Shown here piece after piece: positions 259-24,939 of a stretch of DNA of 36,361 nt. This stretch comes from a virus: positions 1 to 36,361 of the IMG/VR virus record IMGVR_UViG_3300023179_000005; one strand, given 5' to 3'. Position 1 is the stretch's first letter. Each line of letters opens with the position of its first letter. Both the position numbers and the translations under genes were made by a program. Below the pieces are notes generated by a model. It made no database searches and was not told where the DNA came from. It saw only the letters and a program-made list of their open reading frames with translations.

Positions 259-510
259 CTAACCCCATTGCACATCAAATAACCAGTGACTGATATCTAT
301 ACGTTTGTTATTTTCATCAACGCCAATCCACTCGAATCCCTCCGCACCTTTAATGCGCCTGACTCGCCAGTTCTTCTCTTGGTAATGCACGTAACCGACA
401 TAATCACCATCATTATTCACACGTATTGATTCGACAGTTACGCGCCATTTAACACGTGTCTTGTTGCTTAGAGTTACTTGCACTAATTGATGGCGTCTAA
501 AACTATTCAT
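259..510 (-). CDS. Small hypothetical protein
   Basis: An 83-residue protein of unknown function. Its ATG at 510 overlaps the stop of the upstream P-like gene (ATGA), so the two are translationally coupled. It is basic at the N-terminus and rich in Arg, Trp and Asp/Asn, with no membrane segment or cysteine pair. Alternating hydrophobic and charged residues suggest a small beta-rich fold, perhaps SH3-like, but no family was recognised. Position between the replication loader candidate and the nuclease suggests a DNA metabolism accessory; that is inference from context only. Confidence 0.7.
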   Translation of the reverse strand: MNSFRRHQLVQVTLSNKTRVKWRVTVESIRVNNDGDYVGYVHYQEKNWRVRRIKGAEGFEWIGVDENNKRIDISHWLFDVQWG

Positions 511-1112
511 TTGCGATATTTCCTAGCTCGGCAAAATCCACAACTGCACGGCGGTGAACTTGCTTCATCTTTTGGTTGCCAGTATCCGCGTTCGTTTCGT
601 TGCCAGTCGGCTGGTATAACAACAACTTGCCGTTGCGTGATTGGAGTTGCTGGACACTCACACGCATAGACTGGAATATGCCATTCCTTGCCAGCAGGGC
701 AATAGGTCTCAACGGGGATATAACCACGATCTCCACACCAGCGACAAGCGGTTGTTCCGTCGGTGCGGTAGCTTGTTTGCTTTTCTCTGGCTAAGTGCTC
801 GGCGATTAAAGTCTGGTACGCCGGAATTACTGACATTACCGGGAACCATTTTGACCAGTCATGATCTTGAGTGGCCTTCCGCCAGGATGGTGATAGCCAC
901 TGATCTGGTATATCGCATAAGGCTTCCGTCCAGGTTATCACGGCAAGTTTAAGCTCATCATCTTCACTTAGCGGCAGGGAGCTTAAGGTTCGAGTCTTCT
1001 GGATAAGCGTGATTATTGCCGCCGTCCTGGCCGGTGAGTTCTGCAATGAGGGCGAGAGTCTTCCGGGCTGCTCGCTGATTGTGGCTTTCGCGTACGGGTT
1101 TATTCTGTCCAT
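507..1112 (-). CDS. Lambda P-like replication protein with zinc-binding cysteines (putative helicase loader)
   Basis: A 201-residue protein directly downstream of the O-like initiator, where phages of this layout usually carry the helicase loader. The N-terminal part (about 45-110) is acidic and helical. The C-terminal half has a zinc-ribbon-like cluster: Cys123/Cys126, Cys138, Cys151/Cys153 and a second group Cys189/Cys191/Cys194. The start at 1112 is chosen because a strong site (AAGGAG, seven bases upstream) precedes it, although this makes the gene overlap the initiator by 149 bases in another frame. It may recruit the host replicative helicase to the origin. No Walker motif is visible, so it is not a DnaC-type ATPase. 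Function is inferred from position and size. Confidence 0.6.
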   Translation of the reverse strand: MDRINPYAKATISEQPGRLSPSLQNSPARTAAIITLIQKTRTLSSLPLSEDDELKLAVITWTEALCDIPDQWLSPSWRKATQDHDWSKWFPVMSVIPAYQTLIAEHLAREKQTSYRTDGTTACRWCGDRGYIPVETYCPAGKEWHIPVYACECPATPITQRQVVVIPADWQRNERGYWQPKDEASSPPCSCGFCRARKYRK

Positions 1113-1803
1113 TGTGATACTCCTTGTCTCGGTTGTGTTGTTTTTCCAGTCTATAGTAGCTGTCTATCAGGCCGGTAATATTGCGAAGCGAATAGCGATT
1201 GTCCCTCCAGTCTTCGCAGGCCTTGCGCCATAGGGCTAGATGATTGATGTCGCCATTGCTGATGATCTCCTGTTGCCATATACCCAGCGTTGCAAAGATC
1301 GTCAGAGCAATTGATACCGCGTCCTCCGTCTGTGGTGTGTGCGGGCTGGCGACGATCGCCGTCGCCGATTCACCACACTCGTTCTTTTTATGATTAGTCT
1401 TTTTATTATCAGTCTTTTTAGAAGTCCCACAGGGAACAACAATTGTTCCCTGTGGGAACTGCATTTGTTCCCTATGGGAACAACTGTCATTTGTTCCCTG
1501 AAGGACTGACTGAGGTCTGGTCAGCGTGTAAATGGTTGGGCCAGAGAACTGCTTCTGCCTGACAATCCATCCGCCTGATTCTAGCTCTTTGATCGCTTTG
1601 GCGATGGTCTTGTTCGTCCATCCCGTTCGATCCGTGATCACTGCATATGACGGAAACGCCTTGCCGCTGACGCCGTTAGTGTAGCGGCGCAGCAGGACAA
1701 AGAGCCATCGAGCCTGATCGGAATATCCCGCCGCATGGTCAATGAACTGGTGGGGGATGGTTACAAAAGCCCCCCACTCGTCATATATCTTTGCGTTGCT
1801 CAT
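964..1803 (-). CDS. Helix-turn-helix replication initiator (lambda O-like)
   Basis: A 279-residue protein. Residues about 25-85 form a winged-helix DNA-binding domain of the HTH_36/replisome-organiser kind; the recognition region is FPSYAVITDRTGWTNKTIAK, followed by KELESGGWIV. A low-complexity Lys/Asn linker follows, encoded by the iteron and AT-rich tract of the putative origin, then a helical C-terminal domain. This order (DNA-binding domain, origin within the linker, partner-binding C-terminus) is that of lambda O. ATG 1803 is preferred over the TTG at 1806: it overlaps the upstream stop (TGATG) and has GGAAGGA nine bases upstream. The protein would bind its own iterons and, with the P-like protein, load the host helicase. 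Confidence 0.8.
   Translation of the reverse strand: MSNAKIYDEWGAFVTIPHQFIDHAAGYSDQARWLFVLLRRYTNGVSGKAFPSYAVITDRTGWTNKTIAKAIKELESGGWIVRQKQFSGPTIYTLTRPQSVLQGTNDSCSHREQMQFPQGTIVVPCGTSKKTDNKKTNHKKNECGESATAIVASPHTPQTEDAVSIALTIFATLGIWQQEIISNGDINHLALWRKACEDWRDNRYSLRNITGLIDSYYRLEKQHNRDKEYHNGQNKPVRESHNQRAARKTLALIAELTGQDGGNNHAYPEDSNLKLPAAK
1381..1507. other. Putative replication origin: four iterons plus AT-rich unwinding region
   Basis: Four copies of an imperfect palindrome, consensus GTTCCC-TRT-GGGAAC, lie at 1423-1437, 1445-1459, 1467-1481 and 1493-1507 (the last is degenerate in its second half). Centres are 22, 22 and 26 bases apart, about two helical turns. Beside them is an AT-rich block with a 15-base period: GTTCTTTTTA at 1381 and AGTCTTTTTA at 1396 and 1411. 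Read along the initiator gene, iterons come first and the AT-rich part second, the same order as in the lambda origin within gene O. Function is inferred from architecture. Confidence 0.8.
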
Positions 1804-4004
1804 CAAAACAATCCTTCCTGCTTGATGGCGCTCTTGAGATTTTTGACTGCCAGTTTATAGTACGATTCTTTTAGCTCAATCCCTGTAAATCGGCGTCCAT
1901 GCTGCAAGCTCACGTAGCCTTCTGATCCGATACCAGCGAATGGCGAAAACACCATATCACCACGATTCGACCACAGCCGTACGCATCGCTCAATCGTTCC
2001 AAGCTGCAATGGGCAAATATGCCGCTCATCGGATGATTCCCTTGCTACGGCGTAATTCAATGTATCGCTCTCATCAATGCCGTACCAAATAGGACGTGCA
2101 AACTGAATCCACTCCTCGTTACTGACATCCGTCAAAATCGGCTCTTCATTGTCTCCGGGTGCACGAAACAGCAGAATGTAATCAGCCATAGCAGGACGTG
2201 ACCAAGCTGAGTCTTTATTCTTTTGCACGAACATTAGCGCTTTAGCTTTAGTGCGAATTGCCTGAGCCTGAGGATCTTTGTCAATGACAACCTCTCCATC
2301 ATATACCCATCCAGCCGTCACGAAATGCCGTACAACATCAGCACGAAAGTCGCGCCATCCGATTATTCCGTGAGCAACTTTGGTTGTCGTGAATTGCTGC
2401 ACGTGTACACAAGCCCTGCGACCGGGTTTAGTAATCCGTAAGATCTCAGGAATCAAATAATCAAAATGGTCAAAAAACTGATCATAGTCCTTGCTATTGC
2501 CCATATCACGATCGCTTGCGCTATAGGTATATAACGAAGCAAACGGCGGTGAAAATACGGAAAGCCCGACCGACTTGTCTGGCACGTTTGCTATTTGTTC
2601 AATGCAATCGCCCATATACATTGTCCACTTGTCACTTGATTCTGTGTTCACTTTATAAACATCCTTTCTTGTTAAGCCCTGATGAACATGGCTAATCTGT
2701 TGTTCCCTGATAGCTGCTACAATAGATTCAGCCATATCTCTGGCTTGCGATTCTTTGCGATTGATATTGGCGACGATCGTTGATTCTGCATCCGAAGTAA
2801 CAATCACTACATTGACTGATCGTTGTTGACCAAACCTCCAGCATCGACGCACTGACTGATAGTACTGCTCAAAACTATCATCCATACCTAAATACATCAC
2901 GTTTCGACAATGCTGCCAATTAAGGCCGAAACCGAACATTGACGGCTTGCTGATCAACGTCTTAACATTGCCAGACCTCCACGAATATTCACCGGCTATT
3001 TTCTGATCGTCAGGCGTTGCTCCCTCAATCAATACGACCTGATTACCGAGTTCCTTTGCCAACCGTCGTCCTTCATCGTTCAGCTTGCACCATATCAGCC
3101 ACTGCTCATCTGATGATTTAATAATTTCTGCTGCACGTTGCACACGCCCGTCAATGGTCAGCTTTCGCATTTCAGTCCGACCGGATATGCCGCCAGCCAT
3201 ACCAGGAAATAGTGATCCTGCAGGTTTATAATCAGCTTCAATAGTGTCACACGTAATATAAAGATCTGGCAGCTTGTATCCTTCGCATTGAAATCCAATA
3301 TCCTCAGGCGATCGCAAATACAGTGCCCACTGTGACATCCACCGCCAAAAATCCGTTTTTGCGTGACCCTTCAATCTCCAACCATCTGATCCGGACCGCT
3401 CTGAATCGTGCACAAAGAAGGTTGCCAGCATTTCTACACGGGACATTGCGCCAAGAAACTCGGAGTGATTGGCTAATTCGCTCAAATCATTTGGCGCTGG
3501 AGTTGCAGTACAGCATAGCCTGTACTTGATGCCGCTAAACTCGCTTAAAAGCAATGTACGAGTCTTGCCATCCAGAGATTTCAGGATGCTGGATTCATCC
3601 AGTACTATGGCATCGTAATGCGCTCCAATGAAATGGTGCAGCTTTTGGTAATTGGTGACCCAAATACCATCAACATCCTCAGGGCGAGAGCAATATCGGA
3701 TGTCTACGTCGATCCGTTTGGCCTCTTCGATTGTTTGCTCAGCAACTGACAGCGGCGCAACGATCAGCACTCGATTCCCGATCTGTCGTGCCCATTCAAT
3801 CTGCATTAAGGTTTTGCCCATCCCGCAATCGGCGAAGATTGCACACTGGCCCTTCTGAAGAGCCCATTGGACAATCTGCGCTTGCCAGTCGAACAGCATC
3901 GGGTGAACTGGGCCCGGCTCGATGCCTCGGCTATCAACCCGTGGCATCTTGCCTTGTAGGAATGCTTTGTATTTTTCTTCTTTCCGTTTGGCTTGAATCA
4001 TCAT
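1803..4004 (-). CDS. SNF2-type helicase fused to N4/N6 DNA methyltransferase
   Basis: A 733-residue two-domain protein. The N-terminal half is an SF2/SNF2-like ATPase: Walker A CGMGKT (60-65), DExx box VLDESS (134-139), motif III-like TAT (166-168) and a C-terminal RecA lobe ending in the arginine-finger motif QSVRRCWRFGQQ (383-394). The C-terminal third (about 460-733) is a class-beta amino-methyltransferase with catalytic motif IV SPPF (485-488) and the SAM-binding motif SPFAGIGSEG (687-696) after it. This would transfer methyl to N4-cytosine or N6-adenine, with the motor perhaps moving along or opening DNA. Start at 4004: GGAGG five bases before ATGATG; the upstream ATG at 4016 lies in front of that site. 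It sits in the early leftward operon and probably protects phage DNA. Target sequence unknown; no nuclease partner is visible. Confidence 0.85.
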   Translation of the reverse strand: MMIQAKRKEEKYKAFLQGKMPRVDSRGIEPGPVHPMLFDWQAQIVQWALQKGQCAIFADCGMGKTLMQIEWARQIGNRVLIVAPLSVAEQTIEEAKRIDVDIRYCSRPEDVDGIWVTNYQKLHHFIGAHYDAIVLDESSILKSLDGKTRTLLLSEFSGIKYRLCCTATPAPNDLSELANHSEFLGAMSRVEMLATFFVHDSERSGSDGWRLKGHAKTDFWRWMSQWALYLRSPEDIGFQCEGYKLPDLYITCDTIEADYKPAGSLFPGMAGGISGRTEMRKLTIDGRVQRAAEIIKSSDEQWLIWCKLNDEGRRLAKELGNQVVLIEGATPDDQKIAGEYSWRSGNVKTLISKPSMFGFGLNWQHCRNVMYLGMDDSFEQYYQSVRRCWRFGQQRSVNVVIVTSDAESTIVANINRKESQARDMAESIVAAIREQQISHVHQGLTRKDVYKVNTESSDKWTMYMGDCIEQIANVPDKSVGLSVFSPPFASLYTYSASDRDMGNSKDYDQFFDHFDYLIPEILRITKPGRRACVHVQQFTTTKVAHGIIGWRDFRADVVRHFVTAGWVYDGEVVIDKDPQAQAIRTKAKALMFVQKNKDSAWSRPAMADYILLFRAPGDNEEPILTDVSNEEWIQFARPIWYGIDESDTLNYAVARESSDERHICPLQLGTIERCVRLWSNRGDMVFSPFAGIGSEGYVSLQHGRRFTGIELKESYYKLAVKNLKSAIKQEGLF

Positions 4005-4046
4005 CGTATCCTCCATTGTGAGTCTAGCGTTGTTCCTACTAGCAGA

Positions 4047-23584: not shown

Positions 23585-23762
23585 TTTGTTTTTTCCTCTC
23601 TAACGGTGGACGTCTTATCCGTTTATTCCAATCGTTTCGATAATCATCATCATAGGGCGTTGCAATTTGGCGTTGAATTAGTAGCTGTGCAACACTGGCC
23701 GGTATATCTACTATGTCACCAACAATGAGCAGGCCAAAAGGCTTGACTAGCTTAATCTTCAT
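23571..23762 (-). CDS. Small basic hypothetical protein of the connector block
   Basis: A 63-residue protein starting at ATG 23762, with GCGGAG seven bases upstream; a longer frame from 23801 would overlap the upstream gene without a ribosome site. Sequence (KPFGLLIVGDIVDIPASVAQ, then RPPLERKKQSGRK) resembles short head-region proteins with an SH3-like strand pair and a basic tail found next to connectors. It overlaps both neighbours slightly, so translation is coupled. Confidence 0.6.
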   Translation of the reverse strand: MKIKLVKPFGLLIVGDIVDIPASVAQLLIQRQIATPYDDDYRNDWNKRIRRPPLERKKQSGRK

Positions 23763-24939
23763 TTTTGCACTCCGCTGGCTTGCCACTTGTAGCCCAGTCA
23801 TTTAGATATTGATGCTTGATCTTCCAGTCATTTGTTGGCCAAGTTGAAACAACTTGCAAGTGACCAAGTTTAATATGGTTGGCTTGATATATACTTTTAT
23901 TATATTGTCTCCATTTTTTCCAGAAATAGATATCGGCATCTATCCTGTCATCGCTCCAATCGCCATTGGTATCAGGTTGCGACCATAGCCACGGTTTCGG
24001 TATTTCTTGCAATGCTTTTAGTTTAATCAAAGTCATGCCAAAATGGCCTGTCTCAATGGGGGTTATGTCGGGCGCAAAGTCGTCTAACGTGGCTGACTTT
24101 TTCAAGTCACCAAACTCATCACGCATTGTGAAAAGGAATTGTTCATTGTTTCGCCTCACTTGAACGGGAACAATAGCATCGGCGTAGGAATATTGAGCTG
24201 CAAGCGTTAGCAATTCCTTTACGTCATCAGCCGTAAATAAGGTATCGTAATCTAAAGCAATTGCCCACTCGATGTTATTCTCTATTAAATGACTTAATGC
24301 TCGTTGCGTTCCCTGTTCCCAAAATGCGCCACCATATTTATAGAGTGGAATATTGAATTCTGCAGATCTTAACGCCTGCCAAGCGCAACCCCAGTGGTCA
24401 TTCCACCCGAGTCTAGGGACACTCATAAAGGCCGACACTCGAGCTTTTACTTCAATTCTATTCTCGAGTTGTTTCGTGTTCGATCGTTTGTAGCCTTGCA
24501 GATTCAGGCTCACGGGTAATGACGAACAATCCTTTATGTCTGATACCCATGTTGTGATATCGGACAAACCCACAAAGCTCAACATCTCTGTTAGTTTTTT
24601 TGTGGTGTATATGCTTTTATGGTAATCGTTGTCATCAACTTGGCCACCCATAACATAGCCCTCAATAGGTAAGTTATGAATGTTATAATTATTAACTATC
24701 CATTCAAAGTTAGGAACAGAAATTCTAATTAATCCATCCGGCTGTAAAACTCTCACCCACTCTTTAAGTACCTCCACCGCTTCACGGTGTCCAAAGTGTT
24801 CCAGGATATGTGATGCTCGGATTTCTTCGATGCTATTGTCTGCATAACCAGGAAGAGGGAAAACTTCCTCGTTATGCAGACGATCAATAGTTTTGAACCC
24901 GGCTATTTTTTGCAAGCCTCCGCCTAGATTCAGCTTCAT
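23752..24939 (-). CDS. SAM methyltransferase-glycosyltransferase fusion
   Basis: A 395-residue two-domain enzyme inside the head genes. Residues 1-150 form a class I SAM methyltransferase of the type 11 group: LNLGGGLQKIAGFKTIDR (3-20), SHILEHF (43-49) and WVRVLQPDGLIRISVPNFEW (61-80). Residues about 165-395 resemble a GT-A fold glycosyltransferase: IEWAIALDYDTLF with Asp230-x-Asp232 as the candidate metal-binding DxD and VPVQVRRNN downstream. AAAGGAAC precedes the ATG. The linked activities would modify a sugar or protein, perhaps on the capsid or decoration protein. Substrate unknown; the position between capsid and connector genes points to virion modification. Confidence 0.75.
   Translation of the reverse strand: MKLNLGGGLQKIAGFKTIDRLHNEEVFPLPGYADNSIEEIRASHILEHFGHREAVEVLKEWVRVLQPDGLIRISVPNFEWIVNNYNIHNLPIEGYVMGGQVDDNDYHKSIYTTKKLTEMLSFVGLSDITTWVSDIKDCSSLPVSLNLQGYKRSNTKQLENRIEVKARVSAFMSVPRLGWNDHWGCAWQALRSAEFNIPLYKYGGAFWEQGTQRALSHLIENNIEWAIALDYDTLFTADDVKELLTLAAQYSYADAIVPVQVRRNNEQFLFTMRDEFGDLKKSATLDDFAPDITPIETGHFGMTLIKLKALQEIPKPWLWSQPDTNGDWSDDRIDADIYFWKKWRQYNKSIYQANHIKLGHLQVVSTWPTNDWKIKHQYLNDWATSGKPAECKNED

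Follow-up and report, generated by a model that had tools for sequence, protein, structure and literature searches.

Four inverted-repeat iterons and an adjoining A+T-rich tract lie inside an O-like replication initiator gene in a 36,361-nucleotide stretch of viral DNA (IMG/VR record IMGVR_UViG_3300023179_000005), which we will call the window. Very probably, this array and tract are the replication origin of the phage, built like oriLambda; we infer origin activity from the sequences of the window and its relatives. The lambda-like arrangement within the initiator gene, proposed in a preliminary description of this DNA, has been borne out. Iterons and tract both lie within 964–1803 on the minus strand, in the lambda order, and in a check for relatives in which this protein occurs without the palindromes, the one close relative, L015, proved to retain them. 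Embedded origins of the lambda type are an already known class, of which the window is a new example, and the class is extended here to uncultured phages that have no close relatives in culture.

By analogy with lambda, dimers of the initiator would bind the four iterons through the N-terminal winged helix, and wrapping or bending of the array would melt the adjoining A+T tract. The C-terminal domain, which presumably contacts a helicase loader or the helicase, would recruit the helicase through a loader. This loader could perhaps be the product of the overlapping downstream gene.

The initiator gene and its neighbourhood

The initiator gene (964–1803, minus strand) is an open reading frame encoding 279 residues, and its ATG start at 1803–1801 agrees with the start in L015. 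The protein matches Pfam HTH_36 (4.5e-9) and PHROG 678, "replication initiation O-like" (1.1e-13), as well as other initiator families. A winged-helix DNA-binding domain has been assigned to residues 18–95 (1519–1752, minus strand) from the AlphaFold2 secondary structure and the HTH_36 match, and its recognition helix spans about residues 64–76 (1576–1614). The AlphaFold2 model is poor as a whole (pLDDT 47.7), with values of 48–76 in the winged-helix domain and very low confidence in the linker at residues 97–160. The linker is the part of the protein encoded by the iterons and the A+T tract. It is followed by a C-terminal helical domain (residues 162–257; 1033–1320, minus strand), which is common to relatives with different N-terminal cassettes. 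Sequence searches of the PDB have given no matches for the window initiator and none for lambda O. In fold searches, the initiator model matches replication initiators of phages as well as HTH proteins, and one match is named "lambda GpO, N-terminal", but the TM-scores are low (0.2–0.3) and these matches have not been used as evidence.

The downstream gene (507–1112, minus strand) encodes a Cys-rich protein of 201 residues and occupies the place of lambda P. Read in another frame, it shares 149 bp with the 3' end of the initiator gene, and a long overlap of about 150–165 bp is also present in six relatives. No convincing family match has been obtained for this protein, and a PDB fold search has given nothing credible. 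Its helical N-terminal domain has weak structural matches, one of which is named helicase inhibitor/loader G39P; identification of the protein as a helicase loader is only a guess.

Upstream of the initiator gene, a single frame of 737 residues (1803–4016, minus strand) combines an SNF2-type helicase with an N6/N4 DNA methyltransferase. In the relatives L001, L015, and L017–L020, a conserved leader with the inverted repeat AGCCTTCAGTGAAGGCGGG ... CCCGTTTTCACTGAGGGCT (loop of about 45 nt) lies about 15–150 bp upstream of the initiator start. This leader has no alignment upstream of the window initiator, where the helicase-methyltransferase gene abuts. Elsewhere in the window, a frame of 395 residues (23752–24939, minus strand) appears to encode two domains, the first of them of methyltransferase type.

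Iterons and A+T-rich tract

The iteron closest to the A+T tract is AGTCCCACAGGGAAC (1423–1437) and has a degraded outer arm. It is followed by two perfect palindromes, GTTCCCTGTGGGAAC (1445–1459) and GTTCCCTATGGGAAC (1467–1481), and by the most distant iteron, GTTCCCTGAAGGACT (1493–1507), the outer arm of which is also degraded (all sequences are given for the plus strand). The start-to-start spacings are 22, 22, and 26 bp. Four GTTCCC palindromes had been described beforehand; their positions and spacing stand, but only the middle two are perfect, and the outer two depart from GTTCCC-N3-GGGAAC at 2 and 3 positions, most of them in the arms that face outward. In 300 dinucleotide shuffles of the window, a pair of perfect 6-3-6 palindromes that share their arm and lie within 100 bp never arises. 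No other site in the window fits the iteron consensus with up to 2 mismatches, and there is no second array in the 36 kb.

The iterons start at gene offsets 295, 321, 343, and 365 and fall in reading frames 1, 0, 1, and 2. Since all three reading frames are represented, the array is not a protein repeat. This is accompanied by the result of a synonymous-shuffle test, in which the protein and the codon usage are preserved: the repeat cluster of the initiator gene is reached by 0 of 200 shuffles.

The A+T tract (1382–1421, 80% A+T) is the presumed DNA unwinding element. It contains the 15-bp repeats TCTTTTTATGATTAG (1383–1397) and TCTTTTTATTATCAG (1398–1412), with a partial third copy at 1413–1420. 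It is the least stable 40-mer in the initiator gene; in the whole window, just 22 of 36,322 such segments have a lower stability. The corresponding A+T tract of lambda gene O is likewise the least stable and has the same position, and the order of DNA-binding domain, iterons, and A+T tract is the same in both genes. The GC skew of the window tracks gene orientation and gives no origin signal at 1.4 kb.

The palindromes could also be read as hairpins in the initiator mRNA, acting in attenuation or stability. The transcript does fold strongly (z-scores of −8.1 for the window and −7.6 for L015), as that of any palindrome array would, but Vibrio phages have direct-repeat iterons at the corresponding place, and folding there is weak (z −2.2). 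An Rfam search has given no match, and RNA hairpins would leave the A+T tract and its joint exchange with the repeats, described below, unexplained. We consider this explanation extremely improbable.

Codon constraint and cassette exchange among relatives

Searching IMG/VR with the C-terminal domain as query has yielded eight loci. The N-terminal half alone finds no close relative there, a distant alignment finds only Vibrio-type loci, and a scan of genome contigs has revealed no prophage relative. The pattern GTTCCC-N3-GGGAAC plus another half-site has retrieved five loci from IMG/VR (L008–L012), in which no evident O-like initiator frame surrounds the match, as judged by eye from the translations; these have been set aside.

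Among the relatives, only L015 closely shares the DNA-binding domain of the window, with 76% identity over residues 1–98. It has four iterons at gene offsets identical to those of the window. The half-site is ACTTCCC in 8 of 8 cases in L015 and mostly TGTTCCC in the window, the TCCC core being nearly fixed. Over the iteron stretch, amino acid identity between the two proteins is only 43%, yet all 13 conserved residues use the same codon. When the A+T tract is included, the codons are identical at 25 of 25 conserved residues, as opposed to 79 of 144 in the parts used for comparison, which are the N-terminal part and the middle of the C-terminal part (Fisher p 2e-6). This comparison omits the end of the gene that overlaps the downstream gene, which is also constrained (17/23). 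Retention of codons despite such low amino acid identity points to selection on the DNA, with the site altered in all copies together. We take this comparison to show that the iteron motif is under nucleotide-level selection and that its copies change in concert. As for the protein side of the change, T63 and N64 are only a lead to the seat of altered specificity, as about 22 further residues of the DNA-binding domain differ between the window and L015.

The other relatives carry different versions of the same region. In L001 and L017–L021, a different N-terminal domain is found together with different repeats (23-bp spacing where clear) and a different repeat tract, CAGAGACTAC, and L016 has a third set of N-terminal domain and repeats. 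In these relatives, the replaced block begins at the start codon and extends through the A+T tract, while the C-terminal domain and the flanking DNA are common. The borders are visible in the comparison of L001 with L016: the 87% identity of their DNA upstream of the initiator resumes at nucleotide +479/+461, just beyond the A+T or repeat tract. Between these flanks, where the two have different DNA-binding domains and repeats, nothing can be aligned. L015 and L001 show a similar pattern, at 79%. To judge from these alignments, the exchanged unit is shown to be a DNA-binding domain with its own iterons and melting tract, and its border lies just 3' of the A+T tract.

Such joint exchange would be expected for an origin of the lambda type and would be explained less well by an operator or an RNA element. 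It has been considered whether the palindromes are operators through which the winged-helix protein represses its own operon, replication starting elsewhere. A winged helix and palindromes are also the anatomy of a repressor, and autoregulation could coexist with origin function. On the other hand, the sites are located mid-gene and not at the gene start, they adjoin the least stable tract, the A+T tract is exchanged together with them, and the profile families of the relatives are those of replication initiators. An operator with replication initiated elsewhere is thus, in our judgement, very unlikely, and the embedded origin is the preferred reading.

A further proposal, which is plausible but which we hold only tentatively, is that the DNA-binding domain, the iterons, and the unwinding tract make up a self-contained "origin cassette" that is freely exchanged in a group of uncultured phages. 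In one type of cassette, a switch of the recognition code at half-site positions −7/−6 (TG to AC) would have been accompanied by few changes close to the recognition helix (T63-N64 to S63-P64). If this is true, the specificity code of O-like initiators becomes directly testable. These loci also offer a natural experiment in the joint change of specificity of an initiator and its origin.

Probable distant kinship with lambda O and comparison with known origins

Of 21 O-like initiator genes, 19 have a repeat cluster at about residues 82–152 that exceeds all 200 synonymous shuffles; of 20 other genes of the window, taken as controls, none does. The positives include lambda, P22, HK97, HK225, MPK9, Pam5, Vibrio phages, a Clostridioides phage, and the window relatives; Spoks and LE3 have no significant cluster in this test. 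The 21 initiators are a biased sample: they were chosen for their relation to lambda O or to the window protein, and several of them resemble one another closely. In most of the genes tested, the sequence of the initiator gene is enough to reveal the cluster, so that sequence data could serve to locate origins in many uncultured phages. In Pseudanabaena phage Pam5 (L003), positions 2001–2309 belong to an unannotated O-like initiator, the linker of which has three copies of GGGGTCAGAATGTGACCCC; no gene is annotated under the match.

The initiator had been described as not evidently homologous to lambda O, with the same solution perhaps having arisen separately. This view has not been supported, since both DNA-binding domains match PHROG 678: residues 1–98 of the window initiator at 2.2e-10, and residues 1–115 of lambda O, in the same profile region, at 1.7e-33. 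Profile-profile comparison (hhalign) of the alignments of the two groups gives 84% probability and an E-value of 7e-6. These matches are evidence of distant kinship between the two domains, although not proof, winged helices being common. Independent evolution of a lambda-like origin in an unrelated initiator would agree with the absence of direct sequence similarity to lambda O and with the different Pfam models: the window initiator has no match to Phage_rep_O (PF04492) at E-values up to 1, while lambda O matches it at 5.7e-36. It would also agree with the C-terminal domain, which has no detectable relation to lambda O; residues 162–279 have no PHROG match, whereas the lambda O C-terminus has many. 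Against it stand the shared stretch of PHROG 678, the profile-profile match, and a layout common to HK225, MPK9, Pam5, and Vibrio phages. Other O-like families share this layout as well; together with the profile kinship, this makes separate invention the less convincing reading, and we regard it as highly unlikely.

OriLambda consists of four inverted-repeat iterons and about 40 bp of A+T-rich DNA inside gene O (PMC6022878, PMC5043065). The iterons of the window had been thought to differ from those of lambda in sequence and symmetry. The difference in symmetry was mistaken, as the lambda iterons are also hyphenated inverted repeats (PMC6022878, PMC5043065). The difference in sequence is real, but the sequence differs between close relatives here too. 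The window, where the origin is a predicted one, resembles lambda, and also P22 gp18 and HK97 O, in the location of the origin inside the initiator gene and in its four inverted repeats with a spacing of ~20–26 bp, followed by ~40 bp of A+T-rich DNA. The array also lies in the linker between the DNA-binding and C-terminal domains in these systems, and PHROG 678 is common to the N-terminal domains. It differs from lambda in the half-site (TGTTCCC here, ATCCCTC in lambda), in the spacer (3 bp here, about 5 bp in lambda), in the Pfam family (HTH_36 here, Phage_rep_O in lambda O), and in the C-terminal domain and downstream gene, which are not detectably related to those of lambda.

In SPP1, oriL consists of initiator-binding repeats and an AT-rich unwinding element within gene 38, and a separate helicase loader is present (PMC6316719). 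By this description, oriL and gp38 resemble the window in having repeats and an AT-rich element inside the initiator gene (PMC6316719). SPP1 differs in having direct repeats and a second origin, oriR, whereas the window has no second array of its motif.

In the type specificity of the lambdoid O proteins (lambda, phi80, 82, and P22), the DNA-binding half and the iterons change together and the C-terminal half is retained; this exchange of type specificity was reportedly described in 1979 by Moore et al., whose work is cited in PMC6022878. The relatives of the window show the same pattern, with the DNA-binding half and iterons changing together and the C-terminal half retained. The present case differs from the lambdoid exchange in that the phages are uncultured and the cassette borders are visible between genomes that are 87% identical on both sides.
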